DNA from: Nitrosospira multiformis
GTDB taxonomy: Bacteria; Pseudomonadota; Gammaproteobacteria; Burkholderiales; Nitrosomonadaceae
DNA length: 64,000 nt
Direction of reading: 5' to 3'
Assembly: GCF_900103165.1 (NCBI RefSeq)
Contig: NZ_FNKY01000001.1
Coordinates: forward strand, 2,666,001 to 2,730,000
The notes under the pieces are model-generated. The model had not been told where the DNA came from. It did no database searches and was given only the letters and a program-made list of their open reading frames with translations. A program made the translations under genes and the position numbers. Numbering within the stretch: the first letter of the stretch is position 1; each line of letters begins with the position of its first letter. Shown piece after piece: positions 32,374 through 53,592 of the stretch.

Positions 32374-32835
32374 ATGGAACGCCTCACTATCTCGCTGGAT
32401 ACCCAGCTCTCTAAACAGTTCGACGATTTGATGGACGCACGCGGCTATACCAACCGCTCGGAGGCGATGCGCGACCTTATACGTGAGAAACTGGAAACCG
32501 AGCGATTGAAAGATTGGAATGAAGGTCACTGTGTCGCCACGCTCAGCTACATCTACAATCATCACGAGAACGATCTGGCCAATCGTATCGCTGCGGTACA
32601 ACATGATAACCACGATCTCATTCTCTCCAGCATGCATGTGCATATGGACCATAGTGATTGTCTCGAAGTCGCCATTCTCCGCGGGCCGGTTGGGCAGGTA
32701 AAAAGCTTTGCTAACCTTGTCATGTCCGCACGCGGGGTGCGGCATGGCAAATTGCACATGGTTCCAGTAGAGATCAAGCAAGTGCGGCACTCACCAACGA
32801 CGGCGGAGCATATCCACAGCAACCCTCTTACCTGA
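32374..32835 (+). CDS. nikR: Nickel-responsive regulator NikR (copy 1)
   Basis: A 153-residue ribbon-helix-helix repressor. The N-terminal beta-strand and helix (MERLTISLDTQLSKQFDDLM; GYTNRSEAMRDLIRE) contact DNA; the ACT-like C-terminal domain carries the square-planar nickel ligands His77, His88, His90 and Cys96 (in QHDNHDLILSSMHVHMDHSD and the following Cys). NikR represses nickel uptake or controls urease when nickel is bound. It is followed 29 bp later by a carbonic anhydrase on the same strand and stands at the left edge of the urea island. A second intact NikR is at 58726-59187 and a third, only a fragment, at 42108-42188. No strong ribosome-binding site. Confidence 0.95.
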   Translation: MERLTISLDTQLSKQFDDLMDARGYTNRSEAMRDLIREKLETERLKDWNEGHCVATLSYIYNHHENDLANRIAAVQHDNHDLILSSMHVHMDHSDCLEVAILRGPVGQVKSFANLVMSARGVRHGKLHMVPVEIKQVRHSPTTAEHIHSNPLT

Positions 32836-32864
32836 TTACCAGGTCCACCCAATACAATTTTTGT

Positions 32865-33644
32865 ATGTGCAAACTATCTGATAAAAGAAATGAGAAGCCT
32901 GAACAGGATCCGGACAAACGCCGCTTTTTGAAGCTGGCTGCGGCCTCTGCTTTCGCTTGGGGTGTTGCCGGAACAACCGGGAGGACGGCTTTCGCCGCAG
33001 ACACCAAAGCGCCACCCATTCCGGAAAACATAATGACGCCTGATGAGGCGTTGGACAGGTTGATGGAAGGAAACGAGCGCTATGCCACGGGACGATCCAC
33101 GCCTTTGGATTTCAGCGAAGAGCGAGCGGCGCTAGTTTCGGGGCAGAACCCCTATGCCTGTATTTTAAGTTGCTCCGATTCAAGAGTCAGCCCTGAATTT
33201 TGTTTTGATGAACAGCGCGGCGATCTTTTTGTGGCCCGTGTCGCCGGCAATTATCTAACTACCGATTTTGTGGCCACGCTCGAATATGCGGCTGCCGTAT
33301 TGCATACACCACTGATCATGGTGCTCGGTCATGAGAGCTGCGGTGCCGTCAAGGCCGCCATCGATGCCCTCGATAAAAATGAACAATTTCCCGGGCACAT
33401 TCAAACCTTGGCGAGCGCATTGTTGCCCGCGGTCAGGGCAGCAAAAGATATGCCAGGTGACCGTTATAACAATGCGATCAAAATGAATGTCATTCGCAAC
33501 GTGGATAAACTGAAGAAACAACCGCCGATTTTGAGTAAATTAGTGGCGGCTAAGAAACTTCTCGTAGTAGGCGGCGTGTATAGCCTTAAAACCGGAAGAG
33601 TTGATCTGAAGTTTCCCCAGGAATTCACCCTCAAGCAGCGCTGA
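32865..33644 (+). CDS. Beta-class carbonic anhydrase, Tat-exported (copy 2)
   Basis: A 259-residue beta-carbonic anhydrase with Cys103, Asp105 (CSDSR), His156 and Cys159 (HESCG) as zinc site and dyad. The N terminus has a twin-arginine signal (DKRRFLKLAAASAFAWGVAG, cleavage near AFAAD), so the enzyme is periplasmic. It shares architecture and the ending VGGVYSLKTG with the enzyme at 2168, but the sequences are clearly divergent. Lying 29 bp after nikR and upstream of the urea transporter block, it may equilibrate CO2 and bicarbonate around urea hydrolysis or supply carbon for autotrophy (inference). Confidence 0.92.
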   Translation: MCKLSDKRNEKPEQDPDKRRFLKLAAASAFAWGVAGTTGRTAFAADTKAPPIPENIMTPDEALDRLMEGNERYATGRSTPLDFSEERAALVSGQNPYACILSCSDSRVSPEFCFDEQRGDLFVARVAGNYLTTDFVATLEYAAAVLHTPLIMVLGHESCGAVKAAIDALDKNEQFPGHIQTLASALLPAVRAAKDMPGDRYNNAIKMNVIRNVDKLKKQPPILSKLVAAKKLLVVGGVYSLKTGRVDLKFPQEFTLKQR

Positions 33645-33704: not shown

Positions 33705-34016
33705 CTAAGGTCCGTCAAGAAGACTCCTCCCCTTTATCTCTGACATGACGTCGGAGCCATTGCCATTGTTACTTTCGGCACCAGTAAGCAGCCACGCAAG
33801 GGAGAAATCGAGTTTTGAACGCAGCGCTATAAGCTTGCTGAGTTCCGGCTTGGAAACGCCGCTTTCCCATTGTGAAATAATGGTTCGGGGAACGCCGCAA
33901 AGCTCACCCAGCTGACTTTGGGTAAGCGCGCATCTGCATCTTAATTCTGCAAGCCTTGTTCCCCTGGCAAAATGAAACATTTGAGGTTTGGTAAACATGA
34001 GATTTTTATGTTGCAT
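33705..34016 (-). CDS. XRE-type helix-turn-helix regulator
   Basis: A 103-residue protein that is little more than a Cro/C1-type DNA-binding domain: LAELRCRCALTQSQLGELCG then VPRTIISQWESGVSKPEL (about residues 21-62), with a short C-terminal tail. A second ATG at 33998 is equally plausible; neither start has a strong ribosome-binding site. It lies between the carbonic anhydrase and the urea transporter and points away from the former, towards it. No toxin or partner gene is adjacent. Target unknown. Confidence 0.75.
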   Translation of the reverse strand: MQHKNLMFTKPQMFHFARGTRLAELRCRCALTQSQLGELCGVPRTIISQWESGVSKPELSKLIALRSKLDFSLAWLLTGAESNNGNGSDVMSEIKGRSLLDGP

Positions 34017-34160
34017 AAAAATTGATCATGAATAATGACTGAGGATATTGAAACTGCCCCAGCATTCCCGATTTAAAGCACCTAAACGTCTTGATAGCGT
34101 AAAATTTTCCGTTTCCTTTAAGACCGTATATCCCCCCAAAACCTGGAGGATATAACGGGT

Positions 34161-34217
34161 GGCTAATCGACCCCTGATGAGTGAAACTTGACATGAGGGG
34201 GAAAGGGCCGATTAGCC
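34161..34217 (-). terminator. Stem-loop after urea transporter A
   Basis: GGCTAATCG-ACCCC pairs with the distal GGCCGATTAGCC arm, 16 bp beyond the transporter stop on its strand, with a loop of about 30 bases. The copy after transporter B (42380-42436) is a perfect 14-bp stem. No clear T-run follows. The duplicated DNA begins exactly at this arm. Confidence 0.5.
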
Positions 34218-34232
34218 ATTAAGCGTTTATCT

Positions 34233-35189
34233 CTATGCGTCGGCCTCCGCCCAGTATTTTGATTTTCCTGCGGCAAACAGGAACATCCACATCACCAGCA
34301 CAAATGGGAAGGTAAGCGTAGGCAGGCCTATGGGCGCAAGGAAGTTCGCAAGCCCCGCCTGGCAAATCACGGTAAGAAACCCCGCCAGAACTGCCAGCGC
34401 TGCGCTTTTTCCATCCGGTTTCAGAAAAACCCACCCCACCGCCATCATGGTCAGGACCGGGTTGAATGAATACAGCCCCATCTCGATCATGCCCTGGTTC
34501 GCACCCAGCAGAATCGGAAATGCCACGCCGATAATCGTTCCCCCCACTGCCATCAATGCGCCCCGCAGGGAGACAATGGCGATGCCGGTTAAGAACAGAA
34601 TGCCGACTATGACGCTGTCTGCAAACATCACTTCGGCAACCCCTTTGGTGAGGGCGGTAAACCACATCTCAGCCGGAATCGCCACCGCATCGGCTACCGC
34701 GGCAGGCGTGCCGGGCGGCGGCAAAACGGGGCCACGCGAAAAACTGTCGAACGCATACACGGCAACCAGGAACATCCAGGAGGTCAGCACAAAGGGGGAC
34801 GTCGAGGCCGGAATCTTGTAGGGCCCGAGTATCCTCATCAGGGCCGCCAGCACGATACTTGACAGGGCCGAGGCAAGGACCACATACAGCCACAGCTGCG
34901 GAGAATTCTCCAGGAACAGAAAAAGACAAGGACCGACCAAGGTGCCATTGAACCCGTACAGCCCCGCATCGATATCGTCTTCGGAAAAACCGAGGAGATA
35001 AGCGGTAACGGTGCTGCTTATCACCCCAACCGTGGCCGCGGCGCCTGCGGTTACCCCGCCGATGAAAAGTGCCACCAGGAAAATGAGTCCTGTCACTGCA
35101 TTGCAGCAGAAGAATACCTGGCCCACGCCTCTCAGAATCACGCGCAGCGGTCGGGGCATTGCCTTATCTATCGTTAATGACCATTCCAT
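34233..35189 (-). CDS. Urea transporter (UT family), copy A
   Basis: A 318-residue integral membrane protein of the UT/Yut family, a channel-like facilitator of urea. Two homologous halves are visible with the family signature LYGFNGTLVGPCLFLFLENS in the first and LYSFNPVLTMMAVGWVFLKP in the second; each half has about five helices. A GGAGGGAATTAAA ribosome-binding site precedes the start. The protein is identical to that encoded at 42452-43408. Here it follows a porin but with the urease genes removed in between, so it can still supply urea to the urease made from block B. Confidence 0.93.
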   Translation of the reverse strand: MEWSLTIDKAMPRPLRVILRGVGQVFFCCNAVTGLIFLVALFIGGVTAGAAATVGVISSTVTAYLLGFSEDDIDAGLYGFNGTLVGPCLFLFLENSPQLWLYVVLASALSSIVLAALMRILGPYKIPASTSPFVLTSWMFLVAVYAFDSFSRGPVLPPPGTPAAVADAVAIPAEMWFTALTKGVAEVMFADSVIVGILFLTGIAIVSLRGALMAVGGTIIGVAFPILLGANQGMIEMGLYSFNPVLTMMAVGWVFLKPDGKSAALAVLAGFLTVICQAGLANFLAPIGLPTLTFPFVLVMWMFLFAAGKSKYWAEADA

Positions 35190-35317
35190 TTTAATTCCCT
35201 CCTGTGTTTCTTTATGATAACGAGCTATTTTTAGTAATGTGGCTACCCAGAAAGTACGGTCATCCCGGTAATTCGACTGAAAACCCGATCTTCTCGAGAC
35301 TCTTCGTCAGGAAACAC

Positions 35318-35371
35318 CTAAATGCTTGCATGGCTGGGAATACGCTGTGACTTGATTTCGTCCAGCAATCC
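35318..35371 (-). pseudogene. ureG: ureG 3' remnant
   Basis: The last 18 codons of ureG, including its TAG, are kept exactly (matching 43537-43590) and then the sequence breaks off. Everything coding the GTPase domain is missing. Confidence 0.85.
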
Positions 35372-35413
35372 TCTTTATATTTCCTCTTAAATAACTAGAT
35401 TTCACAATGCCAT

Positions 35414-35478
35414 TTAAGATCAGTAGATACGACTGTATTGCACTTCATGCTGCATGGATAACAGTGACAGCCCCGGCG
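35414..35478 (-). pseudogene. ureF: ureF 3' remnant
   Basis: The segment with AGTAGATACGACTGTATTGC, followed by ACTTCATGCTGCATGGATAA and CAGCCCCGGCG, parallels the 3' end of the intact ureF at 44228-44292 with scattered substitutions, keeping an in-phase stop. It then changes into an unrelated hairpin (CCCGGCGCTC / GAGCGCCGGG, 35472-35500). The rest of ureF is absent. Confidence 0.8.
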
Positions 35479-35857
35479 CTCATCTTCTTCGAGCGCCGGG
35501 AAATGCAGCCGGCCTAATAGGGAAGCTGGCTGCATCATGGTCACTCAACTCTGTTGTCGAGGACGCATATGCTCATTTCAGGCTGCATTGCAGGTTTATG
35601 AATTCCATTTACATATCCAGTATGTTGATATGACTCGCAACATCTGCCATATTTGCCCCCTTTTCTGCAATATTTCATTTGTTCCCAAACAAGGGAATTT
35701 TCCGCGAGATAAAATATCCCTTCATGCCGGCAGTTGTGACATGACTGTATGCGCCCGCACGTGGCAACCTTTTTGGGGCTGCCACGTTTCTCGTGCTCAG
35801 GATATGCTGAGCTCTGGCTGGCGCCGGGTCCTGCAACAGGGGTCTTACCCATTGCTT
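35479..35857. other. Unrelated filler between ureF and ureA remnants
   Basis: About 380 bp with no counterpart in the intact urease operon. A 112-codon minus-strand frame crosses it (35541-35879), Cys-rich and without a recognised motif; I do not consider it a secure gene. Confidence 0.4.
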
Positions 35858-36004
35858 TCACCATTCCGATAGTTCCCACGCAGTGGTCATCAGCGCCACC
35901 GCTTCCGGGTAGTTGAGCTTCAAGCCCCGTGCCTTGCGCCGTTCCGCCACTAATCCGGCAGTAAATATCTGCAGCTTGTCTTTCTCTCTTGGTGTAAGGT
36001 CCAT
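35858..36004 (-). pseudogene. ureA: ureA 5' remnant
   Basis: The first 38 codons match the intact urease gamma subunit ([20 protein letters not shown] ... LNYPEAVAL), then the frame runs into unrelated sequence and stops at 48 codons (ending TTAWELSEW). The GAGG-type ribosome-binding site is kept, so a short peptide may still be made. Confidence 0.88.
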
Positions 36005-36140
36005 TGCTTCCTCCCCTTAAATTAACAATTGTTTTACTTCTTCTATGTTCTGGTTACAGCCAACCTGACACCATCCGTTTCAAAGAACCCAGGGACTTCC
36101 CCTATACGCGGCTGATGGGAGCCTCATCTATTCCCAGGCA

Positions 36141-37484
36141 TTACATCTGCAACTGGAAAGATAGTTTGAAGACATCCACCTTGTCGCCTATCACCCCGGG
36201 TGCATAATTCAAGCCTTTGGTAAAAAGGTCACCATGCTGGTAATACGCCGAGATACGCGCATTGAAGCCATCAATGATGTAATTCACGCCCCCCTCGATC
36301 TCTTCACGGTTACTGCTATGATTCGGTTGGATACTGGTGAATCTGCCATACGGCTGGAATTTGCCGATACCCACCTTGACCGGTATCAGATAAAGCCCGG
36401 TAACCGTCCAGGATTTTCCATCGAATACGCAAAAACAACCCGGATCGGCAAAAGCCTGAGAATTATAATTAGCGTAGAACTGCTTGTATTCCGCGTTTAA
36501 CGTGGTTACCCCCAGGTTCCTCGGCAAGACTTTCTCGAACAGAAGATCGCCAACCAAACCAAGGAAGTCACTGCGATTGGCAAATGATCCCGCGCCATTC
36601 TTCTGGTAATTTGCCCCGAACGCCAGCGCCAGGATGTCGCCCGCCTTGCCAAAATAGGTACTGCTGGTGTAGTAACCCGGATTCTTTTCAGGGTTCAGGA
36701 AATTGTAGGTGAACCGACCGGCCCACGACACATCGTTTCCCTGGTTGGGTCCAATTGTGTTGGATGACTGCAACCCCCGGTATACGCCCACCGCATAGCC
36801 CAGCGTACCCTTGATGAAGCCCGGTTCGACGCTGCCCCAGAAGGTGCCGCCGTCGTCACGGCCGTAACGCCCTGCGCCGTTGCTGCCGAATTTAACGCTG
36901 AAGTCCTGAGGAAAGAATGGTGTCTTGAAGGCGTCATGCGTCGCCTGGAAAAAAGGACCGCTCAATTCGCCCCGTTCCGTGGGCACCAGCATGCGTCCGC
37001 CCCAGATGTTCACATACCGGTTGATCTCGACTTTCCCGATAGCGTCCAGAATGTTATAGGACATCTTGGGGTTATCCGCCGAACTGGTGTTGTTACAGAA
37101 AAAACATTCCGTGTTGACTTCGAATTTGAGATATTTATGAACCTGCCCGTTTAAATACACCCGAGCATTGTCAATGCTGAAAGAATCATTGTAACTGTCG
37201 GTCGCCTTGTTTTGGGCCCATATGCCCGAACCGCGGAAACCAATGCCTGCAGTAAACCATCGGGTCTCGTCAAGCGCCCATTTCGGCCCGCTCGGAAGCT
37301 TGAAATCAGATGCTCCCACCGCAGAAGATAAGGACAGAAAACCGATCACCAAGAGCCCCACCAACACCATCTGGATACAGAAGTTATTCGTCTTCTTCCA
37401 GAGGTCATTTTTTCGCAAGGAACTTTCAGCTGAAATAAATTCGTAATCAGCCATTTTGTGTTCCCTTTTCGCAAAATATTTCAT
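36141..37484 (-). CDS. Outer-membrane porin, copy A
   Basis: A 447-residue beta-barrel porin resembling the OprO/OprP type. A long N-terminal leader with a hydrophobic signal (QMVLVGLLVIGFLSLSSAVG, cleavage near ASDF) precedes strands such as DETRWFTAGIGFRGSGIWAQ, YLKFEVNTECFFCNN and the C-terminal KVDVFKLSFQLQM. The mature part is nearly identical to that of the porin at 48957-50354, while the signal region is quite different. Two cysteine pairs (ECFFC and GCFCVF) are unusual for a porin. By context it should admit urea or small solutes. It follows a lipoprotein gene by 20 bp and precedes the urease stubs and urea transporter on the same strand. Confidence 0.87.
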   Translation of the reverse strand: MKYFAKREHKMADYEFISAESSLRKNDLWKKTNNFCIQMVLVGLLVIGFLSLSSAVGASDFKLPSGPKWALDETRWFTAGIGFRGSGIWAQNKATDSYNDSFSIDNARVYLNGQVHKYLKFEVNTECFFCNNTSSADNPKMSYNILDAIGKVEINRYVNIWGGRMLVPTERGELSGPFFQATHDAFKTPFFPQDFSVKFGSNGAGRYGRDDGGTFWGSVEPGFIKGTLGYAVGVYRGLQSSNTIGPNQGNDVSWAGRFTYNFLNPEKNPGYYTSSTYFGKAGDILALAFGANYQKNGAGSFANRSDFLGLVGDLLFEKVLPRNLGVTTLNAEYKQFYANYNSQAFADPGCFCVFDGKSWTVTGLYLIPVKVGIGKFQPYGRFTSIQPNHSSNREEIEGGVNYIIDGFNARISAYYQHGDLFTKGLNYAPGVIGDKVDVFKLSFQLQM

Positions 37485-37504: not shown

Positions 37505-37900
37505 TTAATTAACTCGCTTGGCATGATCGTTTCTTGCAAGTTCCGATGAGATTTTCTGATGAAGAGCAGCCCGCTTTACCGTTTCCTCCGCAGCCATCTC
37601 ATATCTGCGCAATAAAGCCCAGGTATGGGCTCGCATATCCTGGGCCCGCTTACCATAGAGATAACTTTTATCCTCGTAGTGCTCCAGCAGTTTCTTTTGC
37701 CTCTCTACCTCTGCCAGTAACTCCCTAGCTGTAATTTCATACTGCCTGGCCACGGTATCGTGATCGAAGTAGGTTCTGGCATTCTCCGCAACTCTTCGCG
37801 TATCAGCATTCTGTGCTTCAAAAGGCGCCATCTGTGCGCAGGATGCCAGCAGGCCGAGCATGGACACCACCACTATGAATTTACCAGTTTGTTTTTTCAT
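37505..37900 (-). CDS. Small lipoprotein of the porin operon
   Basis: A 131-residue protein with a lipoprotein signal peptide (KFIVVVSMLGLLASC; lipobox LLASC, Cys21) and an otherwise helical, charged mature part (REL LAEVERQKKLLEHYED and QDMRAHTWALLRRYEMAAEE) likely to form coiled coil. The ATG has GGAG upstream. It ends 20 bp before the porin start and so is probably the first gene of the block A operon. Block B has no equivalent in front of its porin. I do not recognise the family; lipid anchoring in the inner leaflet of the outer membrane next to the porin is plausible. Confidence 0.8.
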   Translation of the reverse strand: MKKQTGKFIVVVSMLGLLASCAQMAPFEAQNADTRRVAENARTYFDHDTVARQYEITARELLAEVERQKKLLEHYEDKSYLYGKRAQDMRAHTWALLRRYEMAAEETVKRAALHQKISSELARNDHAKRVN

Positions 37901-38033: not shown

Positions 38034-38453
38034 AAAAGAGTATCATCGATTAATTGAAAAAGATGCAGGAAATTCCTTACAGGCCGTTCATTTCATTCCT
38101 ACATCATGTCTCGATATTCCCTACAGATATTTTCCGCTTTTCCCACATGAATAACGTTTAATCATAATACGTAAAAATGACGATAACTTAGTTATGCGAG
38201 AAATTTGAGGAATTTCCTTACAAATTATTCAGCTCATTCCTACGCCATGTTTCGTTATTCCCTACAGATCATTTCCTTTTTCCTCACATAAACATGAAAT
38301 AATCATAATGCTTAAAGAATCCTATCATTGATATAATAAAAAAAATGCAGGAGATTCCTTACTGGCTGTTCGTTTTACTCCTACGCCATGTCTCAATATT
38401 TCCTACAGATATCTTCTGCTTTCCCTACAGAAACCCCGTTTAGTCATAGATCT
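38034..38453. repeat. Three 140-bp imperfect repeats with phased TTCCTAC motifs
   Basis: Units start near 38034, 38173 and 38314. Each carries TTCCTTAC, then TTCCTAC (or CTCCTAC) 23 bp on, then TTCCCTAC or TTTCCTAC 21 bp further, and a tail like AATCATAAT. For example: 38073, 38096, 38117 in unit 1; 38214, 38237, 38258 in unit 2; 38355, 38378, 38399 in unit 3. The spacing is kept although the rest has drifted, which suggests selected protein-binding sites. It is direct, not CRISPR-like. Confidence 0.75.
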
Positions 38454-39254
38454 TGCGATGCCGTTACGCGTGGATGTTATCCAATGTCCAATGATCTTTA
38501 TTTTTGTTAGGCATACATGATAATGTTATGTCATATATGATTCCCCATCTACCCCGGTTGCATGTGCTCCCAGAACATCCAAGTTCCAGCCAGATAACAT
38601 AGCGTCGTTGATAAATACGCCTCGGGTCTGCGCAAAGGAGAGCGCTTACCTATCTGTAAATGGTTAAGAATATTTTCCGCGATGTTGGAACGCCGTTCTG
38701 AGTTTTCCTAACTAACCGGACGATTTCTGCCCGATCCCATTGGATAGCCTGGCCACACATACGCTATCTCATCGACATATATCTCACAGGTTTTGGATGC
38801 ATGACATTGATTATCGAATCCGGCAGAAAAGAAGTAAGGTTTTCCTGACATGATGTTCATGTGTTCCTTACATCATGTTTCGGCATTCGTTGACAGACAT
38901 GTCAGCTGCGTATGCTAAAGTTTCCATGCATCTGGTCGAAAATGGAGGACGAACATATGTGCATGCTAACGTCTGTTCATTTTTTCTTCTTGCTCAGGCA
39001 CGATTTCTCTAAACTGGAATTACAGGACGAGGAGATAAGGGAAAACGCGAGCGCCCGATCTTCTGAAAGCCGTCACTGCTGCTCCAGCTATAAGGCTTGA
39101 TTTCCCTGTCATAAAGAACGCTTCCCATTATCCTGCACATGCCCTACGGGAATTATTTGATTGCTGAACACAGGGATGCTTGGACCCGCTGATTGGGAAT
39201 CACGGGTACTAGCAATGTAGGTAGCAGTAATTTAACCAGACATAAAGGAAATAC

Positions 39255-41222
39255 ATGCGAATTGGCGTTTTCACCAATTTTTGCCTTATCGTCACCGTAC
39301 TGGGACTCAGCCTGCTGATCTTTCTTTCCTCCCAGGTGCTGGACACGCTGGATGAGATCACCGCCGCCGAGCGCCAGCAATACAGATCCCTGCAGCTCGC
39401 AAATGAGTTATTCCAGAGTTCCGAGGATCTCACCAAGATGGCTCGCAGCTACGTCACCACCGGCGACCCAATCTATGAACGATTCTTTTTCGAAATTCTC
39501 GACATCCGGAACGGCAAACTGCCCCGCCCTCGGGATTATCCGATCACCTACTGGGATGTAAACAATATGCCCTCGCCCACGCGAGATAGTGCCGTCTCCT
39601 TAATGGAGCTGATGCAGCGTGAAGGATTCAGCGAACACGAACTCGACCTGCTGCGGCAATCGCAAAGGAATTCCGACAATCTGGTCAATCTGGAAAAACA
39701 GGCCTTCGCTGCCATCAAAGGCTTGTACGACGATGGGCACGGAAATTTCACCCGGTCGCACACGCCTGACCGCGATTTTGCCATCGACCTGCTGTTTGGC
39801 GAACGCTATACCGCCGAGAAAGCCAGGATCATGGCGCCCATCAGTCAGTTCATGCGGGAACTGGATCATCGCACCCAAACCACGATGAAGAATCTGCAGT
39901 CAAAGTTCCAGCAGCAGATCTTGCTGATACCGGGAGTGCTTTGCAGTGCGCTGCTCGTCGTGGCAGTGGCCGCCGCCTATATGCGCCGCAATATCCTGCA
40001 CCCGCTCGATTATCTCAGCCGGCAGGCGAGCAGCATCGCACAGGGCAGCTACTCCACCCGCTGCGACATCTCCACGCACAACGAAATCGCCGAGCTCGGT
40101 TCCGATTTCAATACCATGGCGGAAGCCATTGAACATGAAATCATCAAACTCAAGCAGGTAGAAGGATCATTACGCGAGCGGCTGAAGGAGCTCAACTGTT
40201 TCTATTCAATCCGGCGCGGCATGGAGGCCGGGTCGCTGGAGGAAGTTTGCGGCACCATTTTTGTGCACCTGATCGCGGCGATGCAGTTTCCGCATATCTC
40301 CAGCATCAGAATCGAGCTCGACGGCAAGCAGTTTGTCTCCAACCAGTATGACCAGGATCATGCGCGCCGGTTACAAAAACAGATCATGGTATACGGCAAG
40401 GCATACGGCTGGATAATCGTATTCTACCGCGAGGACCGGCCTTTCCTGCTGCCCGATGAGCAGAATCTGATCGACGTCATCGGGGACGATCTGGGGAAAT
40501 GGCTGGAACGCAAGCAGGCGGAGGCACGCATCCTGGTGGAACGGGAGCTGCGGGTGCGCGATGCCGCGATACGGGAATTTGCGGCGCACGTGGAGCGGAT
40601 GCGGGAAGAAGACCGTAAATACATTGCCCGCGAGATTCACGATGAGCTGGGCCAGCTCCTGGCGGCATTGCACCTGGAAATCTCGCTGCTAAAGGGTGTG
40701 GAAGACAATAGAAAAAGGGTGGAAATCGTCAGGCGCAACATGTCGGAGCTGGTGGACAAAGCGGATCAGAGCGTGCGCAACGTGGCCGAGCATCTGCGCC
40801 CGGCTTCACTGGAGTTGGGCATCATCTCGGCTCTCAAAAAATTGACCGATGAGTACAGGAAACATAGCGGCGTAAGCTGCGTACTGCGACTGATGAAGGA
40901 ACCCGTTGAGCTGGATGAAGATCAGACCGTGGCGATATTCAGGATTGTGCAGGAATCCCTGACCAATGTGACCCGGCATGCCGCGGCAAGCCATGTCGAG
41001 ATCATCCTGTCGCAGGAGGCGGGTGATCTCTTGATAGAGGTGCGCGACAACGGCAAAGGATTTAATGCAACAGCTGCCGCAAGGAAAAAGTCATTTGGCC
41101 TGGTTGGGATGCGCGAGCGGGCGGCGGTGCTGGGGGGAAGTATCGATATCGCCAGCCTGCCGCGGCAAGGAACCGTGGTCAAGCTTCGCCTGCCGGTGAA
41201 GGTATGCGAAGAGGTTTCGTGA
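39255..41222 (+). CDS. Membrane sensor histidine kinase, copy A
   Basis: A 655-residue NarX/LiaS-type kinase. Order: membrane helix (about 6-28), periplasmic input domain (about 30-215), second helix (about 218-240), HAMP (about 243-295), a GAF-like linker (about 305-430), HisKA_3 with the phospho-accepting histidine in IAREIHDELGQLLAALHLEI, and HATPase (NVTRHAAASH, EVRDNGKGF, GLVGMRERA). The input domain is shared with the kinase at 50830 and the GGDEF/EAL protein at 22100. It differs from the block B kinase only in patches: second membrane helix, a short HAMP segment and the last 50 codons. Its presumed partner regulator at 41342 lies downstream on the opposite strand. Ribosome-binding site AAAGGAAA. 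Confidence 0.93.
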   Translation: MRIGVFTNFCLIVTVLGLSLLIFLSSQVLDTLDEITAAERQQYRSLQLANELFQSSEDLTKMARSYVTTGDPIYERFFFEILDIRNGKLPRPRDYPITYWDVNNMPSPTRDSAVSLMELMQREGFSEHELDLLRQSQRNSDNLVNLEKQAFAAIKGLYDDGHGNFTRSHTPDRDFAIDLLFGERYTAEKARIMAPISQFMRELDHRTQTTMKNLQSKFQQQILLIPGVLCSALLVVAVAAAYMRRNILHPLDYLSRQASSIAQGSYSTRCDISTHNEIAELGSDFNTMAEAIEHEIIKLKQVEGSLRERLKELNCFYSIRRGMEAGSLEEVCGTIFVHLIAAMQFPHISSIRIELDGKQFVSNQYDQDHARRLQKQIMVYGKAYGWIIVFYREDRPFLLPDEQNLIDVIGDDLGKWLERKQAEARILVERELRVRDAAIREFAAHVERMREEDRKYIAREIHDELGQLLAALHLEISLLKGVEDNRKRVEIVRRNMSELVDKADQSVRNVAEHLRPASLELGIISALKKLTDEYRKHSGVSCVLRLMKEPVELDEDQTVAIFRIVQESLTNVTRHAAASHVEIILSQEAGDLLIEVRDNGKGFNATAAARKKSFGLVGMRERAAVLGGSIDIASLPRQGTVVKLRLPVKVCEEVS

Positions 41223-41977: not shown

Positions 41978-42107
41978 GCTCAATACCCTATTGAGATCGG
42001 TTGACATCGGAGAGTCAGGTCGACTTACCGGTATTCGAGTGAAGAGTTACCGATTGGCAGCCAAATGACTTTTCTTTGTCGCCATCCTCCGCAAGTTTAA
42101 TTAGAGC

Positions 42108-42436: not shown

Positions 42437-42451
42437 ATTAAGCGTTTATCT

Positions 42452-44190: not shown

Positions 44191-44227
44191 TTTATTTCCC
44201 GTAAATAATTGGATTTAACAATGCCGT

Positions 44228-44908: not shown

Positions 44909-44927
44909 GATCTCCGATCCTCTATTT

Positions 44928-45466: not shown

Positions 45467-47173
45467 TTAAAACAGAAAGTAGCGTTGCGCCATCGGCAGA
45501 ACATCTTCCGGCCCGCAGGTCAGAAGTTGACCATCCGCCCTTACTTCGTAGGTCTCCGGATCAACTTCCATCTTGGGGGTCGCGCCATTGTGAATCATGT
45601 CCTTCTTGCGCAGATTCCGCGTGTTCTTGACGGCAATCAGGTTCTTGTCCAGTTTCAGGGTGTCGACAAGACCTTTATCAAGGGCCGCTTGCGATGTGAA
45701 GGTGAAGCACGATGTCTTGATGCCCCCGCCGTATCCGCCAAACATGTAGCGGTAGTGCACGGGCTGGGGAGTGGGAATCGAAGCATTCGGATCGCCCATC
45801 AGCGACGCCGCAATCATGCCGCCTTTCAGGATCATGGAAGGCTTGACGCCAAAGAACGCGGGCCGCCATAGAACCAGATCCGCGTACTTGCCCACTTCAA
45901 CCGAACCAATCGCGTGCGCAACGCCGTGCGTGATGGCCGGGTTGATGGTGTATTTCGCAATGTAGCGCTTGACCCGGAAGTTGTCGTTCTTCGAGTTGTC
46001 TTCCTGCAACGAGCCGCGCTGCGTCTTCATCTTATGCGCGGTCTGCCAGGTGCGCGTTACCACTTCGCCAATGCGCCCCATTGCCTGGGAATCCGACGAC
46101 ATCATCGAAATCGCGCCCATGTCATGCAGGATATCCTCGGCCGCAATCGTTTCCTTGCGAATGCGCGATTCGGCGAAGGCAAGATCCTCGGCGATATTCG
46201 CATGCAGGTGATGGCATACCATCAGCATGTCAAGGTGCTCATCCAGCGTATTGACGGTATAGGGCCGGGTCGGGTTGGTGGATGACGGCAAAACGTTGTC
46301 CAGGCCTACGACCGCGATGATGTCCGGTGCGTGACCGCCGCCGGCGCCTTCGGTATGGAACGTGTGTATGGTCCGGTCCTTGAATGCAGCAACCGTGTTC
46401 TCCAGGTAACCGCCTTCGTTGATGGTGTCCGTATGGATAGCGACCTGAATGTCGTATTTATCCGCAACGTTCAGGCAGTTGTCGATCGCCGCATAGGTCG
46501 TGCCCCAGTCCTCGTGCAGCTTGAGCCCGCATGCACCGGCCAGAATCTGTTCTTCATTCGGCGTGGGCAGGCTGACGTTGCCCTTGCCGAAAAAGCCGGT
46601 GTTCATGACTAGGCCGTCGGATGCCTGCAGCATGGAGTGAATGTGCCACGGACCCGGCGTACAGGTAGTGGCCGCCGTGCCCACTGCCGGACCAGTACCG
46701 CCGCCCAGCATGGTGGTGATGCCGTTCATCATCGCGTCTTCGGCCTGCTGCGGACAGATGAAGTGAATGTGGCTGTCGATGCCGCCGGCTGTGACAATCA
46801 AACCCTCGCCGGCAATGATTTCCGTGGCAGCACCGATCGCCATGGTGACGTCGGGCTGAATGTCCGGATTGCCCGCCTTGCCGATTGCTCCAATCTTGCC
46901 GCCTTTCAGGCCTATGTCAGCCTTGACGATGCCCCAATGGTCAATAATGACTGCATTGGTAATCACCGTATCCATTACGTCGGCGTGGTTGCGCTGCGAT
47001 TGGCCCATGCCGTCGCGTATCACCTTGCCGCCGCCGAATTTCACCTCTTCGCCATAGGTGGTGAAGTCCTTCTCGATTTCAATGAAAAGTTCCGTGTCGG
47101 CCAGGCGAACGCGATCCCCTGTCGTGGGGCCCATCATCTCGACATAGGCGTGGCGGGATATTTTAAAAGTCAT
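45467..47173 (-). CDS. ureC: Urease alpha subunit UreC
   Basis: The 568-residue catalytic subunit, full length. It hydrolyses urea to ammonia and carbamate at a di-nickel centre. Visible active-site elements: HIHFICPQQ (nickel-binding histidines), [11 protein letters not shown] with the carbamylated lysine, [17 protein letters not shown], and [16 protein letters not shown]; the flap region [19 protein letters not shown] carries the catalytic histidine. The end matches family ending ([12 protein letters not shown]). The ribosome-binding site and 36-bp gap after ureB indicate an operon. Confidence 0.97.
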
Positions 47174-47209: not shown

Positions 47210-47536
47210 CTATTTCAGCTTGCCCATCACTTTCTGGTTAAATCCGTATACCGCCCGGTCCCCGCCCAGCTCGACCAGCTCGATGGTGCGCTCCTGGCCT
47301 GGCTCAAAACGCACAGCCGTACCCGCCATGATATTCAGGCGCATGCCGTAGGCCTCCTCCCGCTCAAAGTTCATCGCGGAATTGACCTCGTAAAAATGAA
47401 AGTGTGAACCGATTTGTATGGGCCGGTCGCCGCCATTGGAAACCTTCAACGATTTGGTCTTTCTGCCAACATTCAGTTGGATGTCACCGGGCTGGGTAAA
47501 TATTTCTCCCGGAATTAGGGGTAATCTTGCCATCAT
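47210..47536 (-). CDS. ureB: Urease beta subunit UreB
   Basis: A 108-residue structural subunit. Typical segments are [40 protein letters not shown] and GYGMRL-type [20 protein letters not shown]. Two adjacent ATGs occur; the one at 47533 is better spaced from AGGAG. It is a separate gene, 15 bp after ureA, as in Klebsiella-type operons. Confidence 0.96.
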
Positions 47537-47550: not shown

Positions 47551-47853
47551 TTAGGGAATGGGGTTGTGAACCGTCACCAGCTTGGTGCCGTCCGGAAAGG
47601 TCGCCTCAACCTGGATATCCGGGATCATTTCGGGAACCCCTTCCATCACCTCGCCTCGCTTCAGCACGCGCGTGCCTTCCGCCATCAGCGCCGCCACGGA
47701 ATGCCCGTCTCGCGCCCCCTCCATCACCGCACAGGTGATCAGCGCAACCGCCTCCGGATAATTGAGCTTCAGGCCCCGTGCCTTGCGCCGTTCCGCAACT
47801 AATCCGGCAGTAAATATCTGCAGCTTGTCTTTCTCTCTTGGTGTAAGGTCCAT
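47551..47853 (-). CDS. ureA: Urease gamma subunit UreA
   Basis: The 100-residue gamma subunit ([20 protein letters not shown] ... [20 protein letters not shown]), normal length, with GGAGGAAGC before the start. A 117-bp gap separates it from ureD and contains AT-rich DNA (TTAAATTAACAATTGTTTTA), which also survives ahead of the ureA stub at 36004; a second promoter could lie here. Confidence 0.96.
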
Positions 47854-47969
47854 TGCTTCCTCCTCGTTAAATTAACAATTGTTTTACTTCTTCTACTTCT
47901 TTTAACACCGCTACCACCTGATGCTTCTCTTATCGGATACCAAAAACATGCCGTTTCACTGAAAAGACA

Positions 47970-48911
47970 TCACGTTTTCCACATACGCGGAACCATTGCC
48001 TCACGGCCAAGCATAGCCGGGCGGAGCAGACCCCAGATATGCAGCATTACCTGTCGTGCCGTCTCGCTCGAGTTTCCTAGATAACGCGCCGTTATCACTG
48101 GTTTCAGCTGCGAGATACCGAGATGGCCGGCCCCTTTTGCGATTTCTCCCGCCTCTTCGCGCGCAGCCGCCAGCACGGTGGGGGACACGGCCTTTCCCAC
48201 CGCGATCAGGGTGGCACAGATAGTGTTTCCTCCGAGTAGCAAAGGACTCTTCATGCCTGCACTGCCGCCTGCCAACCGGAGTTGCTCGAACCAGATCAAT
48301 TTGCCTTCGTATTGAATGCGGGTGCGCTGCCTGATCCGGCCGCTGGTGAATGATTCTCCTGAGGCCGTACGGCCAAAACAAAGAATTTCGCAACCGATAT
48401 AGCTTGCCTCTTTTTCCATCACGACGCGATGCTCAAGCTTCACATCCACATTATCGAAAAAAATGGTTTCCTGCGGCACCCATTCGAGCACGCCTTTTAC
48501 ACCGACATCGAGTCTTATAGCCTGGTGCGAGACATGACCATTAGCCTTGTACCATTTGGCCGCACCCGGGGTGGTGACCTGGGTGCTGGCTGTTGCGCCG
48601 ACGCGAGCGGAAATCTCCAACTGATCGCCGCCCACGACACCGCCCGGCGGATGTACGATGACAACCTGGCAAACCTCCCGCCCTTCGGGATAGAGTGGTT
48701 TTTGCACCAGCAGCGGACCGAAATGTTCCCGTTCCACTAAACGGGTGGCGCCTTCTTCCTTGCGGAAACCCAGCGACAACCGTGCCTGCAGAGGCGTATA
48801 GCCTGAATCCAGCTTCACGTCCGGCGAATCTTGCGTGGGATACAGGTGATGAACTGAAGCGGCAGGGTCCCGTCTGATGATGGATTCTTCCGCGTTAGGT
48901 ATTAAATGCAT
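47970..48911 (-). CDS. ureD: Urease accessory protein UreD
   Basis: A 313-residue scaffold that binds apo-urease and recruits UreF and UreG for nickel loading. Family segments include VVIVHPPGGVVGGDQLEISA, TPGAAKWYKANG, WVPQETIFFDNVDV and RWYLG-like VITARYLGNSSETARQVMLH. The start has only a weak ribosome-binding site. It lies 45 bp after the porin and leads the ure genes. In block A it has been lost entirely. Confidence 0.95.
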   Translation of the reverse strand: MHLIPNAEESIIRRDPAASVHHLYPTQDSPDVKLDSGYTPLQARLSLGFRKEEGATRLVEREHFGPLLVQKPLYPEGREVCQVVIVHPPGGVVGGDQLEISARVGATASTQVTTPGAAKWYKANGHVSHQAIRLDVGVKGVLEWVPQETIFFDNVDVKLEHRVVMEKEASYIGCEILCFGRTASGESFTSGRIRQRTRIQYEGKLIWFEQLRLAGGSAGMKSPLLLGGNTICATLIAVGKAVSPTVLAAAREEAGEIAKGAGHLGISQLKPVITARYLGNSSETARQVMLHIWGLLRPAMLGREAMVPRMWKT

Positions 48912-48956
48912 GTCTTGTTATCGATCATTTTATGGTTTTGATGAAGTATTAGGCGT

Positions 48957-50354
48957 TTACATCTGCAACTGGAAAGATAGTTTGAAGACATCCACCTTGT
49001 CGCCTATCACCCCGGGTGCATAATTCAAGCCTTTGGTGAAGAGGTCGCCATGCTGGTAATACGCCGAGATACGCGCATTGAAGCCATCAATGATGTAATT
49101 CACGCCCCCCTCGATCTCTTCACGGTTACTGCTATGATTCGGTTGGATACTGGTGAATCTGCCATACGGCTGGAATTTGCCGATACCCACCTTGACCGGT
49201 ATCAGATAAAGCCCGGTAACCGTCCAGGATTTTCCATCGAATACGCAAAAACAACCCGGATCGGCAAAAGCCTGAGAATTATAATTAGCGTAGAACTGCT
49301 TGTATTCCGCGTTTAACGTGGTTACCCCCAGGTTCCTCGGCAAGACTTTCTCGAACAGAAGATCGCCAACCAAACCAAGGAAGTCACTGCGATTGGCAAA
49401 TGATCCCGCGCCATTCTTCTGGTAATTTGCCCCGAACGCCAGCGCCAGGATGTCGCCCGCCTTGCCAAAATAGGTACTGCTGGTGTAATAACCCGGATTC
49501 TTTTCAGGATTCAGAAAATTGTAGGTGAAACGTCCCGCCCACGACACGTCATTTCCCTGGTTGGGTCCAATTGTGTTGGATGACTGCAACCCCCGGTATA
49601 CGCCCACCGCATAGCCCAGCGTACCCTTGATGAAGCCCGGTTCGACGCTGCCCCAGAAGGTGCCGCCGTCGTCACGGCCGTAACGCCCTGCGCCGTTGCT
49701 GCCGAATTTAACGCTGAAGTCTTGAGGAAAAAACGGTGTCTTGAAGGCGTCATGCGTCGCCTGGAAAAAAGGACCGCTCAATTCGCCCCGCTCCGTCGGC
49801 ACCAGCATGCGTCCGCCCCAGATGTTCACATACCGGTTGATCTCGACTTTCCCGATAGCGTCCAGAATGTTATAGGACATCTTGGGGTTATCCGCCGAAC
49901 TGGTGTTGTTACAGAAAAAACATTCCGTGTTGACTTCGAATTTGAGATATTTATGAACCTGCCCGTTTAAATACACCCGAGCATTGTCAATGCTGAAAGA
50001 ATCATTGTAACTGTCGGTCGCCTTGTTTTGGGCCCATATGCCCGAACCGCGGAAACCAATGCCTGCAGTAAACCATCGGGTCTCGTCAAGCGCCCATTTC
50101 GGCCCGCTCGGAAGCTTGAAATCCGTTGGACCCGCTGCAGGCTTCACCTCCGTTGCGCTTGTCATGGGCTGAATCTCTGTTGCACTCGCTGAAGGCGACA
50201 AAAACAAATAACCGACTATCAATACCGCCAGCAACATTGCCTGGACAAAGAAATTCTCTCTTTGTTTCCCAAGATCATTTCTTTGTGAAGCATTTTCGAC
50301 CAATGCTGTTTCATGGCCTATCATTTTATGTATTATTTTTTCAAAATATTTCAT
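48957..50354 (-). CDS. Outer-membrane porin, copy B
   Basis: A 465-residue barrel porin, mature region nearly identical to copy A from FKLPSGPKWALDETRWFTAG to the last residue. The first 75 or so residues differ: it has its own signal (QAMLLAVLIVGYLFLSPSAS) and an extra Thr/Pro-rich repeat (TEIQPMTSATEVKPAAGPT) before the mature barrel. It reads directly into ureD on the same strand with a 45-bp gap, so it is the first gene of the urease operon and probably the urea entry pore. A small patch near 49490-49560 differs from copy A by silent changes only. Confidence 0.88.
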   Translation of the reverse strand: MKYFEKIIHKMIGHETALVENASQRNDLGKQRENFFVQAMLLAVLIVGYLFLSPSASATEIQPMTSATEVKPAAGPTDFKLPSGPKWALDETRWFTAGIGFRGSGIWAQNKATDSYNDSFSIDNARVYLNGQVHKYLKFEVNTECFFCNNTSSADNPKMSYNILDAIGKVEINRYVNIWGGRMLVPTERGELSGPFFQATHDAFKTPFFPQDFSVKFGSNGAGRYGRDDGGTFWGSVEPGFIKGTLGYAVGVYRGLQSSNTIGPNQGNDVSWAGRFTYNFLNPEKNPGYYTSSTYFGKAGDILALAFGANYQKNGAGSFANRSDFLGLVGDLLFEKVLPRNLGVTTLNAEYKQFYANYNSQAFADPGCFCVFDGKSWTVTGLYLIPVKVGIGKFQPYGRFTSIQPNHSSNREEIEGGVNYIIDGFNARISAYYQHGDLFTKGLNYAPGVIGDKVDVFKLSFQLQM

Positions 50355-50829
50355 CTCTGAAAATTTCCTTTATATTTATTAACCTGACGTTTTGGATCAT
50401 GCATTGTTTATTTCCATAAGTCATTACTAAATACCCACAAATTATAAATTTTGTGTAGGAGAACTGTTCTTAAATGTATTACAGATAGGATGCGGATGAA
50501 ACTTGACAGTCGCGCTGGTTCTGAAAAGTCAAACGAAAAATATCTCCTAACAGACCCGGTTAAGGAGATTAATTTTTTAACCCTATGATTAAAAACATAT
50601 CTATTAATCTCCCATGGAACCGTACTTCTGTCCAATAGGAAACTCTCGTAGAATCCGTAAGATTCCGCCGTGGGCTGGAGTTTGTCAATAGGATGTGACG
50701 TGGTTTGCCTTTGGCGGCATATATACGGAATGAATTCGCACTCCATCATGAGTGACGCGATCAGAGTGCGATTAGAAAATAGCCTTACGGGCCCGAGTGG
50801 CCTGCACCAACCAGATTCAAAGGAAATAC
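50355..50829. promoter_or_regulatory. Divergent control region of porin B/urease and kinase B
   Basis: About 475 bp of mostly AT-rich DNA. It contains CGCACTC (50738) and GAGTGCG (50764), a 7-bp inverted repeat about 60 bp ahead of the kinase, and TGTAGGAGAA (50455), one reversed copy of the TTCTCCTACA-type motif of the 38-kb array. It is otherwise unrelated to the block A control region. Confidence 0.45.
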
Positions 50830-52800
50830 ATGCGAATTGGTGTTTTTATCAATTTTTGCCTTATCGTCACCGTACTGGGACTCAGCCTGCTGATCTTTCT
50901 TTCCTCCCAGGTGCTGGGCACGTTGGATGAGATCACCGCCGCCGAGCGCCAGCAATACAAATCCCTGCAGCTCGCAAATGAGTTATTCCGGAGTTCCGAG
51001 GATCTCACCAAGATGGCTCGCAGCTACGTCACCACCGGCGACCCAATCTATGAACGATTCTTTTTCGAAATTCTCGACATCCGGAACGGCAAACTGCCCC
51101 GCCCTCGGGATTATCCGATCACCTACTGGGATGTAAACAATATGCCCTCGCCCACGCGAGATAGTGCCGTCTCCTTAATGGAGCTGATGCAGCGTGAAGG
51201 ATTCAGCGAACACGAACTCGACCTGCTGCGGCAATCGCAAAGGAATTCCGACAATCTGGTCAATCTGGAAAAACAGGCCTTCGCTGCCATCAAAGGCTTG
51301 TACGACGATGGGCACGGAAATTTCACCCGGTCGCACACGCCTGACCGCGATTTTGCCATCGACCTGCTGTTTGGCGAACGCTATACCGCCGAGAAAGCCA
51401 GGATCATGGCGCCCATCAGTCAGTTCATGCGGGAACTGGATCATCGCACCCAAACCACGATGAAGAATCTGCAGTCAAAGTTCCAGCAGCAGATCTTGCT
51501 GATACTAGGAATGCTTTGCAGCGGATTGCTCGTCGTGGCTGTGGCTACTGCCTACATGCGCCGCAATATCCTGCACCCGCTCAATTATCTCAGCCGGCAG
51601 GCGAGCAGCATCGCACAGGGCAGCTACTCTACCCGCTGCGACATCTCCACGCACAACGAAATCGCCGAGCTCGGTTCCGATTTCAATACCATGGCGGAAG
51701 CTATTGAGCATGAAATCATCAAACTCAAGCAGGTCAAAGAGTCATTACACGAGCGGCTGAAGGAGCTCAACTGTTTCTATTCAATCCGGCGCGGCATGGA
51801 GGCCGGGTCGCTGGAGGAAGTTTGCGGCACCATTTTTGTGCACCTGATCGCGGCGATGCGGTTTCCGCATATCTCCAGCATCAGAATCGAGCTCGACGGC
51901 AAGCAGTTTGTCTCCAACCAGTATGACCAGGATCATGCGCGCCGGTTACAAAAACAGATCATGGTATACGGCAAGGCATACGGCTGGATAATCGTATTCT
52001 ACCGCGAGGACCGGCCTTTCCTGCTGCCCGATGAGCAGAATCTGATCGACGTCATCGGGGACGATCTGGGGAAATGGCTGGAACGCAAGCAGGCGGAGGC
52101 ACGCATCCTGGTGGAACGGGAGCTGCGGGTGCGCGATGCCGCGATACGGGAATTTGCGGCGCACGTGGAGCGGATGCGGGAAGAAGACCGTAAATACATT
52201 GCCCGCGAGATTCACGATGAGCTGGGCCAGCTCCTGGCGGCATTGCACCTGGAAATCTCGCTGCTAAAGGGTGTGGAAGACAATAGAAAAAGGGTGGAAA
52301 TCGTCAGGCGCAACATGTCGGAGCTGGTGGACAAAGCGGATCAGAGCGTGCGCAACGTGGCCGAGCATCTGCGCCCGGCTTCACTGGAGTTGGGCATCAT
52401 CTCGGCTCTCAAAAAATTGACCGATGAGTACAGGAAACATAGCGGCGTAAGCTGCGTACTGCGACTGATGAAGGAACCCGTTGAGCTGGATGAAGATCAG
52501 ACCGTGGCGATATTCAGGATTGTGCAGGAATCCCTGACCAATGTGACCCGTCATGCCGCGGCAAGCCATGTCGAGATCATCTTGTCGCAGGAGGCGGGTG
52601 ACCTCCTGATTGAGGTGCGCGACAACGGCAAGGGGTTTGATGCGACAGGCGTTGTAGGGAAAAAATCATTTGGCCTGGTTGGAATGCGCGAGCGGGCAGC
52701 GGTGCTGGGGGGCCGTATCGATATTTCCAGCATGCCGCAGCAAGGAACCGTGGTCAAGGTACGCCTGCCGGTGAAAGATGCAAAGGGGTTTCGTGAATGA
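50830..52800 (+). CDS. Membrane sensor histidine kinase, copy B
   Basis: A 656-residue kinase with the architecture of copy A (39255): helix, periplasmic input domain, helix, HAMP, GAF-like linker, HisKA_3 (AREIHDELGQ) and HATPase (VRDNGKGF, GLVGMRERA). The ATG at 50830 (MRIGVFINFC) with AAAGGAAA upstream matches copy A; a frame-extended start at 50797 is unlikely. It is identical over long stretches and differs in the second membrane helix and last 50 codons. The regulator gene follows on the same strand at 52957, so this pair is in the standard arrangement, divergent from the porin-urease operon it may control. Confidence 0.93.
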   Translation: MRIGVFINFCLIVTVLGLSLLIFLSSQVLGTLDEITAAERQQYKSLQLANELFRSSEDLTKMARSYVTTGDPIYERFFFEILDIRNGKLPRPRDYPITYWDVNNMPSPTRDSAVSLMELMQREGFSEHELDLLRQSQRNSDNLVNLEKQAFAAIKGLYDDGHGNFTRSHTPDRDFAIDLLFGERYTAEKARIMAPISQFMRELDHRTQTTMKNLQSKFQQQILLILGMLCSGLLVVAVATAYMRRNILHPLNYLSRQASSIAQGSYSTRCDISTHNEIAELGSDFNTMAEAIEHEIIKLKQVKESLHERLKELNCFYSIRRGMEAGSLEEVCGTIFVHLIAAMRFPHISSIRIELDGKQFVSNQYDQDHARRLQKQIMVYGKAYGWIIVFYREDRPFLLPDEQNLIDVIGDDLGKWLERKQAEARILVERELRVRDAAIREFAAHVERMREEDRKYIAREIHDELGQLLAALHLEISLLKGVEDNRKRVEIVRRNMSELVDKADQSVRNVAEHLRPASLELGIISALKKLTDEYRKHSGVSCVLRLMKEPVELDEDQTVAIFRIVQESLTNVTRHAAASHVEIILSQEAGDLLIEVRDNGKGFDATGVVGKKSFGLVGMRERAAVLGGRIDISSMPQQGTVVKVRLPVKDAKGFRE

Positions 52801-52956
52801 TCTCATGCTGGCCGCCCGGCCTGACGAATCAAGCCGAACAAGCAACCTTCTAATCTGACGGCACATTCTTGACATTCTATTGGATATATTTTACCCGGCA
52901 TTGGCAAATCGACCAGAGTCCCCTCGCGTCAACTTGTCCCCGATGGAGTAACAGGC

Positions 52957-53592
52957 ATGATAATTAGAGTCTTTCTGGCTGATGACCATAGGCTTTTCCG
53001 GGACGGATTGAAACGGATTCTTGCTGAAACATCGGATATCGTCGTCGTCGGCGAGGCAACCGACGGACTCGAAGCCTTAAAGAAAATGCGCCATGGCGGA
53101 TGGGACGTGGCATTACTGGATGTCAGCATGCCGGGCATGAATGGGCTGGAAGTACTAAAACGGATAATGACCGATGATGCAAAACATCAGGTGCTGATGC
53201 TAAGTACGTATCATGAGGATGAATATGCTATCAGGACAATACGCGCAGGCGCATCCGCTTATCTCACCAAGAACAGTCCAATCGATCTGCTGATTTCTGT
53301 TATCCGGCGCTTGGCAAACGGAGGAAAATATATAGATCCGGAATTGGCGGAGAAATTACTGTTCGACCTCGGTCCAGCAGCTTCAATACCGCCACATTCC
53401 ATACTTTCCGATCGGGAACTCGATGTCCTCAAGCTTATCGCCGTTGGAATACCCTTAACGGAAATCTCGCAAAAGTTGGCATTAAGTGCCAAAACCGTGA
53501 GTACTTATCGTACCCGTATTCTGGAAAAAATGAATATGCAGAACAATGCTCAATTAGTCCGCTACGTAACCGAACACAAATTAATGGAGTAG
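52957..53592 (+). CDS. NarL-type response regulator, copy B
   Basis: A 211-residue two-component regulator: receiver with DDHRLF, phospho-Asp in VALLDVSMPGMNGLEVLKRI and Lys in YLTKNS; LuxR helix-turn-helix LALSAKTVSTYRTRILEKMN. GGAG lies 8 bases before the ATG. About 90 percent similar to copy A at 41342, and the parent or sister of the pseudogene at 58328. It is expected to take phosphate from kinase B. Confidence 0.93.
   Translation: MIIRVFLADDHRLFRDGLKRILAETSDIVVVGEATDGLEALKKMRHGGWDVALLDVSMPGMNGLEVLKRIMTDDAKHQVLMLSTYHEDEYAIRTIRAGASAYLTKNSPIDLLISVIRRLANGGKYIDPELAEKLLFDLGPAASIPPHSILSDRELDVLKLIAVGIPLTEISQKLALSAKTVSTYRTRILEKMNMQNNAQLVRYVTEHKLME

Follow-up and report, generated by a model that had tools for sequence, protein, structure and literature searches.

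The urea locus in the 64,000-nucleotide stretch of the Nitrosospira multiformis genome analysed here (hereafter the window) consists of two direct-repeat blocks, A and B, lying head to tail within 32.4–53.6 kb, with stubs in place of urease genes in block A and relics of nikR and of a carbonic anhydrase gene at the head of block B. Taken as a whole, the locus is probably best explained by a tandem duplication that preceded the split between the window strain and the related strain NpAV, followed by complementary decay of the two blocks and later homogenisation of the retained genes by gene conversion.

Gene content of the two blocks

The original prediction was a tandem duplication of a nickel/urea block from one copy of which urease had been deleted. 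Comparison of the window with itself bore out the tandem arrangement, with direct repeats at three offsets: the urea transporter (UT) region at 8219, which fits the claimed 8.2 kb (34160–35371 versus 42379–43590, 6 mismatches in 1212 positions, 99.5% identity), the porin at 12816 (36141–37324 versus 48957–50140, 22 mismatches in 1184, 98.1%) and the kinase at 11575 (39234–41222 versus 50809–52796, 61 mismatches and 1 gap in 1989, 96.9%). Block A runs nikR1, carbonic anhydrase, HTH gene, UT_A, stubs of ureG, ureF and ureA with an insert, porin A, a lipoprotein-like gene, kinase A and an inverted regulator A; block B runs nikR and carbonic anhydrase relics, UT_B, ureGFECBAD, porin B, kinase B and regulator B. 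The features are as follows.

32374–32835, plus: nikR1, intact, head of block A (NikR_C 1e-30, RHH_1; PRK02967 above cut-off)
32865–33644, plus: carbonic anhydrase, intact ahead of block A only (Pro_CA 1.2e-37)
33705–34016, minus: small HTH regulator between carbonic anhydrase and UT_A (HTH_3 1.1e-11)
34233–35189, minus: urea transporter UT_A (UT 1.7e-93; TIGR03441 above cut-off)
34160–35371, unstranded: near-identical tract of UT_A, the hairpin behind it and the ureG stub (99.5% to 42379–43590)
35318–35371, minus: ureG 3' stub, 17 codons and stop, 54 bp (identical to 43537–43590)
35372–35482, minus: ureF 3' stub and ureF–ureG spacer (85.6% to 44187–44296)
35483–35878, unstranded: 396-bp insert of unrelated DNA, common to NpAV block A
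35879–36045, minus: ureA stub, comprising leader, ribosome-binding site and 5' codons (93.5% to 47728–47895)
36141–37484, minus: porin A (98.1% to porin B over 36141–37324; weak ExtI porin match below cut-off)
37505–37900, minus: lipoprotein-like gene, 131 aa, between porin A and kinase A (from the translation)
39255–41222, plus: sensor histidine kinase A (HAMP, HisKA_3, HATPase_c)
41342–42007, minus: response regulator A, inverted relative to kinase A (Response_reg, GerE; 81% to regulator B)
42078–42182, plus: nikR relic, C-terminal part, head of block B (tblastn)
42187–42378, plus: carbonic anhydrase relic, C-terminal part (blastn, tblastn)
42452–43408, minus: urea transporter UT_B (DNA 99.6% to UT_A; proteins identical)
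43537–44190, minus: ureG (cobW/HypB/UreG 3.9e-39)
44228–45079, minus: ureF (UreF 1.1e-32; start codon uncertain, overlaps ureE as called)
44928–45461, minus: ureE (UreE_C, UreE_N)
45467–47173, minus: ureC, sole genomic copy (Urease_alpha, Amidohydro_1)
47210–47536, minus: ureB (Urease_beta 5.8e-45)
47551–47853, minus: ureA (Urease_gamma 1.6e-46)
47970–48911, minus: ureD (UreD 1e-55)
48957–50354, minus: porin B (98.1% to porin A over 48957–50140)
50797–52800, plus: sensor histidine kinase B, of A-type sequence (clade with window kinase A and NpAV_A, 100/100)
52957–53592, plus: response regulator B, oriented as in single-block genomes (Response_reg, GerE)
58307–58680, plus: third response-regulator fragment, beside nikR2 (84.8% to 52936–53308)
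58726–59220, minus: nikR2, right flank of the locus (NikR_C 1.1e-29)

The gene order claimed for both blocks held overall, except that the regulator is inverted in A and that nikR, said to head each block, is intact only ahead of A and reduced to a relic ahead of UT_B. The prediction made no mention of the carbonic anhydrase or of the HTH gene, the latter of which occupies an equivalent position in NpAV and in MGR_bin150.

The urease stubs were found as predicted: beside the ureG stub, block A retains 69 bp of the 3' end of ureF with the ureF–ureG spacer, and the ureA leader with about 38–42 codons. Unrelated DNA lies between the ureF and ureA stubs; the insert region (35460–35886) is 87.7% identical to NpAV L002:73–502, and a portion of it (35566–35776) is also 73% identical to G000:C1:2955593–2955803. 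The claim of a single urease stands, a search of the window's genome returning one ureC match. As to the two urea-entry systems, UT_A passes the curated cut-offs of PF03253 and TIGR03441 (UT/Yut family) and UT_B is the same protein, but the genome also holds a third, distant UT-family gene (G000:C1:2884839–2885810, L086; 51% identity).

The near-identity of the retained genes was likewise upheld for the transporter, the porin and the kinase, but not for the regulators, which are 81% identical and lie on opposite strands. The UT tract is delimited by the outer arm of the hairpin behind UT (arms at 34160–34173 and 34205–34218 in block A) and by the ureG deletion point, and identity ends past both; the transporter coding sequences themselves differ at 4 positions, all silent. 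Porin bodies are near-identical from about codon 55 and their N-termini differ: that of porin A, compared in windows of 60 columns, is 79–91% identical to the NpAV A fragment, that of porin B 62–67% to the NpAV B fragment, which is not clearly conserved. Porin and kinase have different upstream regions in the two blocks, while the encoded proteins are nearly alike.

Several further features lie in or beside block A. The product of the lipoprotein-like gene carries an LASC motif that we take to be lipobox-like, and the gene has counterparts at the matching position in NpAV (85%) and MGR_bin421 (61%), along with about a dozen partial DNA relatives across the genome at 69–80% identity. The noncoding stretch ahead of kinase A (38041–38448) contains imperfect repeats spaced 141 bp apart. 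Outside the block, 30747–32018 encodes a protein with three Ribonuc_L-PSP stretches, whose internal DNA repeats are about 74–76% identical.

Relics at the head of block B

The 444 bp between inverted regulator A and UT_B contain C-terminal relics of nikR and carbonic anhydrase that follow block A in both order and strand. The nikR relic has a stop and a one-residue gap and was recovered by tblastn with three nikR queries (E 2e-6 to 1e-5); the carbonic anhydrase relic was recovered by blastn (73% over 108 bp to the G003 gene) and by tblastn with the window's carbonic anhydrase as query (E 4.6e-5). None of 500 dinucleotide shuffles reached these scores, for nikR and carbonic anhydrase alike. The relic searches overturned a reading of 42275–42378 as a conserved spacer and of nikR as absent from block B. 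Since urease was lost from A, and nikR and carbonic anhydrase from B, the losses are complementary.

The intact nikR2, beyond block B on the opposite strand, is 69% identical to nikR1. In the single-block genome G003, nikR1 lies at one end of the block and nikR2 at the other; both intact nikR genes in the window are thus old flanks of the locus and not products of the duplication.

One block in relatives, two in NpAV

Of 14 further single-block loci that were mapped, 13 show the order regulator–kinase–porin–ureDABCEFG–UT (G001, G002, G003, G005, G006, G008, G011, G012, G013, G014, G016, G019 and G022; in some, the regulator or kinase is cut or missing at a contig or locus edge). Carbonic anhydrase and nikR were not seen adjoining the block in all 13. 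The exception, Nitrosospira 56-18 (G010), carries its kinase–regulator pair on the UT side of its single urease block (L090, 5464–9286); this is the position of kinase A and regulator A in the window, and the pair is possibly a leftover of the same duplication. In Nitrosospira Nl5, a regulator fragment of 57 bp (57–61 bp; L089, 16202–16258) adjoins UT in the orientation of regulator A and may be a sign of an older duplication.

Among 23 genomes of the genus, UT of the block type is present in two copies in 2, as one full-length copy in 15, as fragments in 2 and not at all in 4, and the kinase (E 1e-100) in two copies in 2, in one copy in 15 and in none of the other 6. The two-copy genomes are for both genes those of the window and of NpAV (G009). 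As for ureC, it is single in 17 and unmatched in 6, including NpAV.

NpAV is a draft genome of about 320 contigs, three of which carry parts of the duplicated locus. Contig L003 reads ureE–ureF–ureG–UT–inverted regulator–kinase–lipoprotein–porin start, which is the A/B junction of the window; L002 carries a ureE piece, the block-A insert (88%), UT, the HTH gene, carbonic anhydrase and nikR1; and L087 carries kinase B, regulator B, HlyD, AcrB, the third regulator fragment and the end of nikR2. The NpAV junction includes part of a carbonic anhydrase gene, 70% identical to that of G003 over 97 bp; a search for a nikR piece there found none. The draft gave no ureC match at E 1e-40 and has one isolated ureA (L095:8848–9147). 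Since NpAV possesses both the duplication and the junction of the window, the duplication predates the split of the two strains or moved between lineages.

The independent NpAV contigs also bear on the reliability of the assembly. Near-identical repeats are prone to misassembly, but the copies differ internally and at their flanks, and the junction recurs on L003; an assembly duplication is therefore highly improbable.

In NpAV, the A and B copies are 91.0% identical for UT, 81.1% for the kinase and 93.0% for the regulator, and both regulators read open. Its UT and kinase copies are not homogenised, although a 65-bp ureE piece at 98.5% identity and contigs that end inside the porin hint at homogenisation there too, as far as draft contigs can tell.

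On the right flank, the third regulator fragment of the window follows an HlyD/AcrB pair, an arrangement matched in NpAV L087. This efflux-type pair lies between regulator B and the fragment (52957–58680) in direct orientation and also occurs in NpAV; it is absent between the regulator and nikR2 in G003, and MGR_bin150 (L092) has an HlyD/AcrB-type pair on the far side of nikR2.

Probable homogenisation of the retained genes

Divergence between the window copies varies widely from gene to gene: dS is 0.016 for UT, 0.073 for the porin body, 0.084 for the kinase and 1.03 for the regulator. The transporters, with nothing but their 4 silent changes, could suggest a recent duplication of the whole block with quick deletion of urease from A. 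Against this, dS is unequal among genes of one block pair, the ureF stub has diverged by about 15% and the regulators by 19%, and NpAV has the same arrangement; we rejected this explanation on the sharing with NpAV and the unequal dS, and consider it very unlikely. The prediction that the duplication predates the sequence identity now seen in the kept genes is supported, NpAV having the duplication with kinases only 81% identical.

Gene trees point to the block of origin of the homogenised sequence. These trees drew on the window, on NpAV for the genes that it offers and on up to 14 further genomes, with G004, G007, G015, G017, G018, G020 and G021 outside the set. G014 is missing from the kinase and regulator trees and NpAV from the porin tree; G002, G022 and G011 enter the regulator tree with partial sequences, and the third regulator fragment of the window is outside it. 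The long-branched Nv17 was kept in the first kinase tree and in the regulator and porin trees, and dropped from the second kinase, UT and urease trees.

In the kinase tree, NpAV_A groups with the two window copies, which are each other's closest relatives, and NpAV_B groups with G003, each group at 100/100. Orthology by locus (window B with NpAV_B and G003) was rejected (p-AU 1.7e-42), whereas a single clade of all A- and B-type kinases was not (p-AU 0.088), so that paralogy and transfer are indistinguishable at that level. For UT, the grouping of window B with NpAV_B was rejected (p-AU 9e-5), and that of both window copies with NpAV_A is supported at 70/95 only. Diagnostic sites gave the same picture: at the 370 kinase sites that differ between NpAV A and B, window A and window B each have the A state at 276 and the B state at 69 and 68, respectively, and at the 86 such UT sites both window transporters have the A state at 56 and the B state at 24. 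The window porins form one clade beside G003 (100/100, in a tree without an NpAV row). In the regulator tree, unlike those of the kinase and UT, the window paralogues are not closer to each other than to their positional orthologues.

The differences between copies are also clustered. The longest mismatch-free run in the kinase is 690 bp, which none of 20000 random placements of the differences reached, and that in the porin 440 bp, reached by 12 of 20000; the same test was weak for UT (649 of 20000), uniform placement being assumed throughout. Identity is thus patchy in the kinase and the porin, and weakly so in UT. At the edge of the UT tract, the last 39 bases of window B ureG match the NpAV A stub at 33 positions, compared with 23 for NpAV_B, 25 for G003 and 25 for MGR_bin150, and window ureGFE overall is not of the NpAV_B type.

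Because dS is so uneven across genes, a single event hardly fits, and repeated gene conversion is the simplest account. Most simply, then, gene conversion homogenised the window copies after the duplication, running from A to B in UT and the kinase. A more specific reading, to which we give appreciably less than even weight, is that concerted evolution reaches the urea channel, the porin and the kinase, with the partly dead block A as donor, overwriting kinase B and the 3' end of ureG; the A-type donor sequence would then extend to the last codons of the ureG pseudogene.

Conflicting phylogenetic signals

The relationships of the flanks and of block B do not all agree. In rpoB trees (22 of the 23 genomes, G015 with its broken gene being excluded), the sister of the window is the single-block G003 (99/99), and grouping the window with NpAV was rejected (p-AU 0.0099). 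Either block A was lost from G003, then, or blocks passed from one lineage to another. The ureGFE sequence of the window is 79–80% identical to both G003 and NpAV_B, which are 91.1% identical to each other; trees uniting the window with NpAV_B and G003 (p-AU 0.0065) or with G003 alone (p-AU 0.0005) were rejected. Window ureCBA with G003 was not rejected (p-AU 0.117), ureD leans to Nl5 (97/97), and regulator B groups toward Nl5 (80/82). The placements of ureGFE, ureD and regulator B indicate that block B is not simply an orthologue with converted patches. The original prediction had named an independently acquired locus as the finding that would speak against it, and such an origin retains some probability: the window groups with G003 by rpoB, and its ureGFE groups with neither G003 nor NpAV_B. 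Since G003 is the rpoB sister, and ureGFE and regulator B group with neither G003 nor NpAV_B, exchange between lineages is likely, and our reading of the whole is that G003 lost its block A and that the lineages also recombined.

A more radical version of such exchange is that a block, or much of one, came from another Nitrosospira lineage by recombination in shared flanks, giving a xenologous tandem with later exchange. It would account for the separate positions of ureGFE, ureD and regulator B, for the proximity of the A-type kinase to MGR_bin150 and G001 (96/99), and for the change in affinity along the window: G003 is closer than NpAV in 11 of 14 one-kb bins over 14–28 kb, and NpAV is closer than G003 in every one-kb bin comparable to both over 28–42 kb. 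However, NpAV has both blocks, with an identical junction arrangement and insert, and the relics heading block B have the order that a tandem copy predicts. Moreover, the identity between the window and NpAV over 28–42 kb (0.76–0.94 per kb) is within or near that of the other flanks (0.74–0.93), so that a recent transfer between these two lineages is unnecessary. We consider a xenologous origin less likely but a serious rival, and retain duplication before the window–NpAV split, with later exchange, as the preferred reading.

Apparent constraint on the retained genes

dN/dS is 0.05–0.12 for UT and the kinase, both between the NpAV copies and between window A and NpAV A, so that both gene sets appear to be under constraint; at 0.25, the ratio for window kinase A versus B is looser than for the other pairs. 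Matches of the kinases to NarQ and NarX fell far below the cut-offs, and a promoter and terminator scan stayed at chance level.

Discussion

We propose the following history. An ancestral Nitrosospira locus with nikR, carbonic anhydrase, urea channel, urease operon, porin, sensor kinase and regulator would have been duplicated in tandem before the window strain and NpAV separated. Block A would then have dropped its urease genes and block B its nikR and carbonic anhydrase, while UT, the porin body and the kinase, retained in both, stayed under purifying selection. In the window lineage, gene conversion between blocks would have homogenised these kept genes, from A to B for UT and the kinase.

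For Nitrosomonadales, PMC6053082 describes how amo, hao and cyc copies evolve in concert, which it attributes to gene conversion. As set out there, those are likewise multi-copy genes, in the same order, with NpAV named and with paralogues that resemble each other more inside one genome than across species; unlike them, the blocks described here are adjacent, one urease cluster has decayed, the genes are those of a channel, a porin and a kinase, and one lineage only is concerned. The words urea, urease, transporter, porin and kinase are absent from the main text of that paper. The window locus thus adds a further, modest case to those known in the order.

A passage of PMC4964001 reports for N. 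briensis C-128 a urease operon with an adjoining utp urea transporter gene at one locus; the window shares the operon and the adjacent utp, but its locus is duplicated and partly decayed. Utp is termed a low-affinity urea transporter in a section of PMC10753782, which also reports utp without ure genes in N. europaea ATCC 19718 and N. mobilis Ms1. Like those genes, UT_A has no adjoining urease, but the window genome keeps urease in the neighbouring block. Among the literature matches listed, no title or abstract opening describes the duplication found here.

As far as gene content can tell, the two blocks would provide a higher gene dosage for urea entry and sensing, controlled from two upstream regions, alongside a single urease, and a benefit of this kind may underlie the retention of both copies. 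The locus offers a bacterial tandem duplication that can still be traced, whose parts met different fates (decay, complementary loss, divergence and homogenisation) inside about 20 kb. It warns against dating duplications from the identity of the surviving genes, and against taking the number of urea transporter copies as proof of a second urea pathway.
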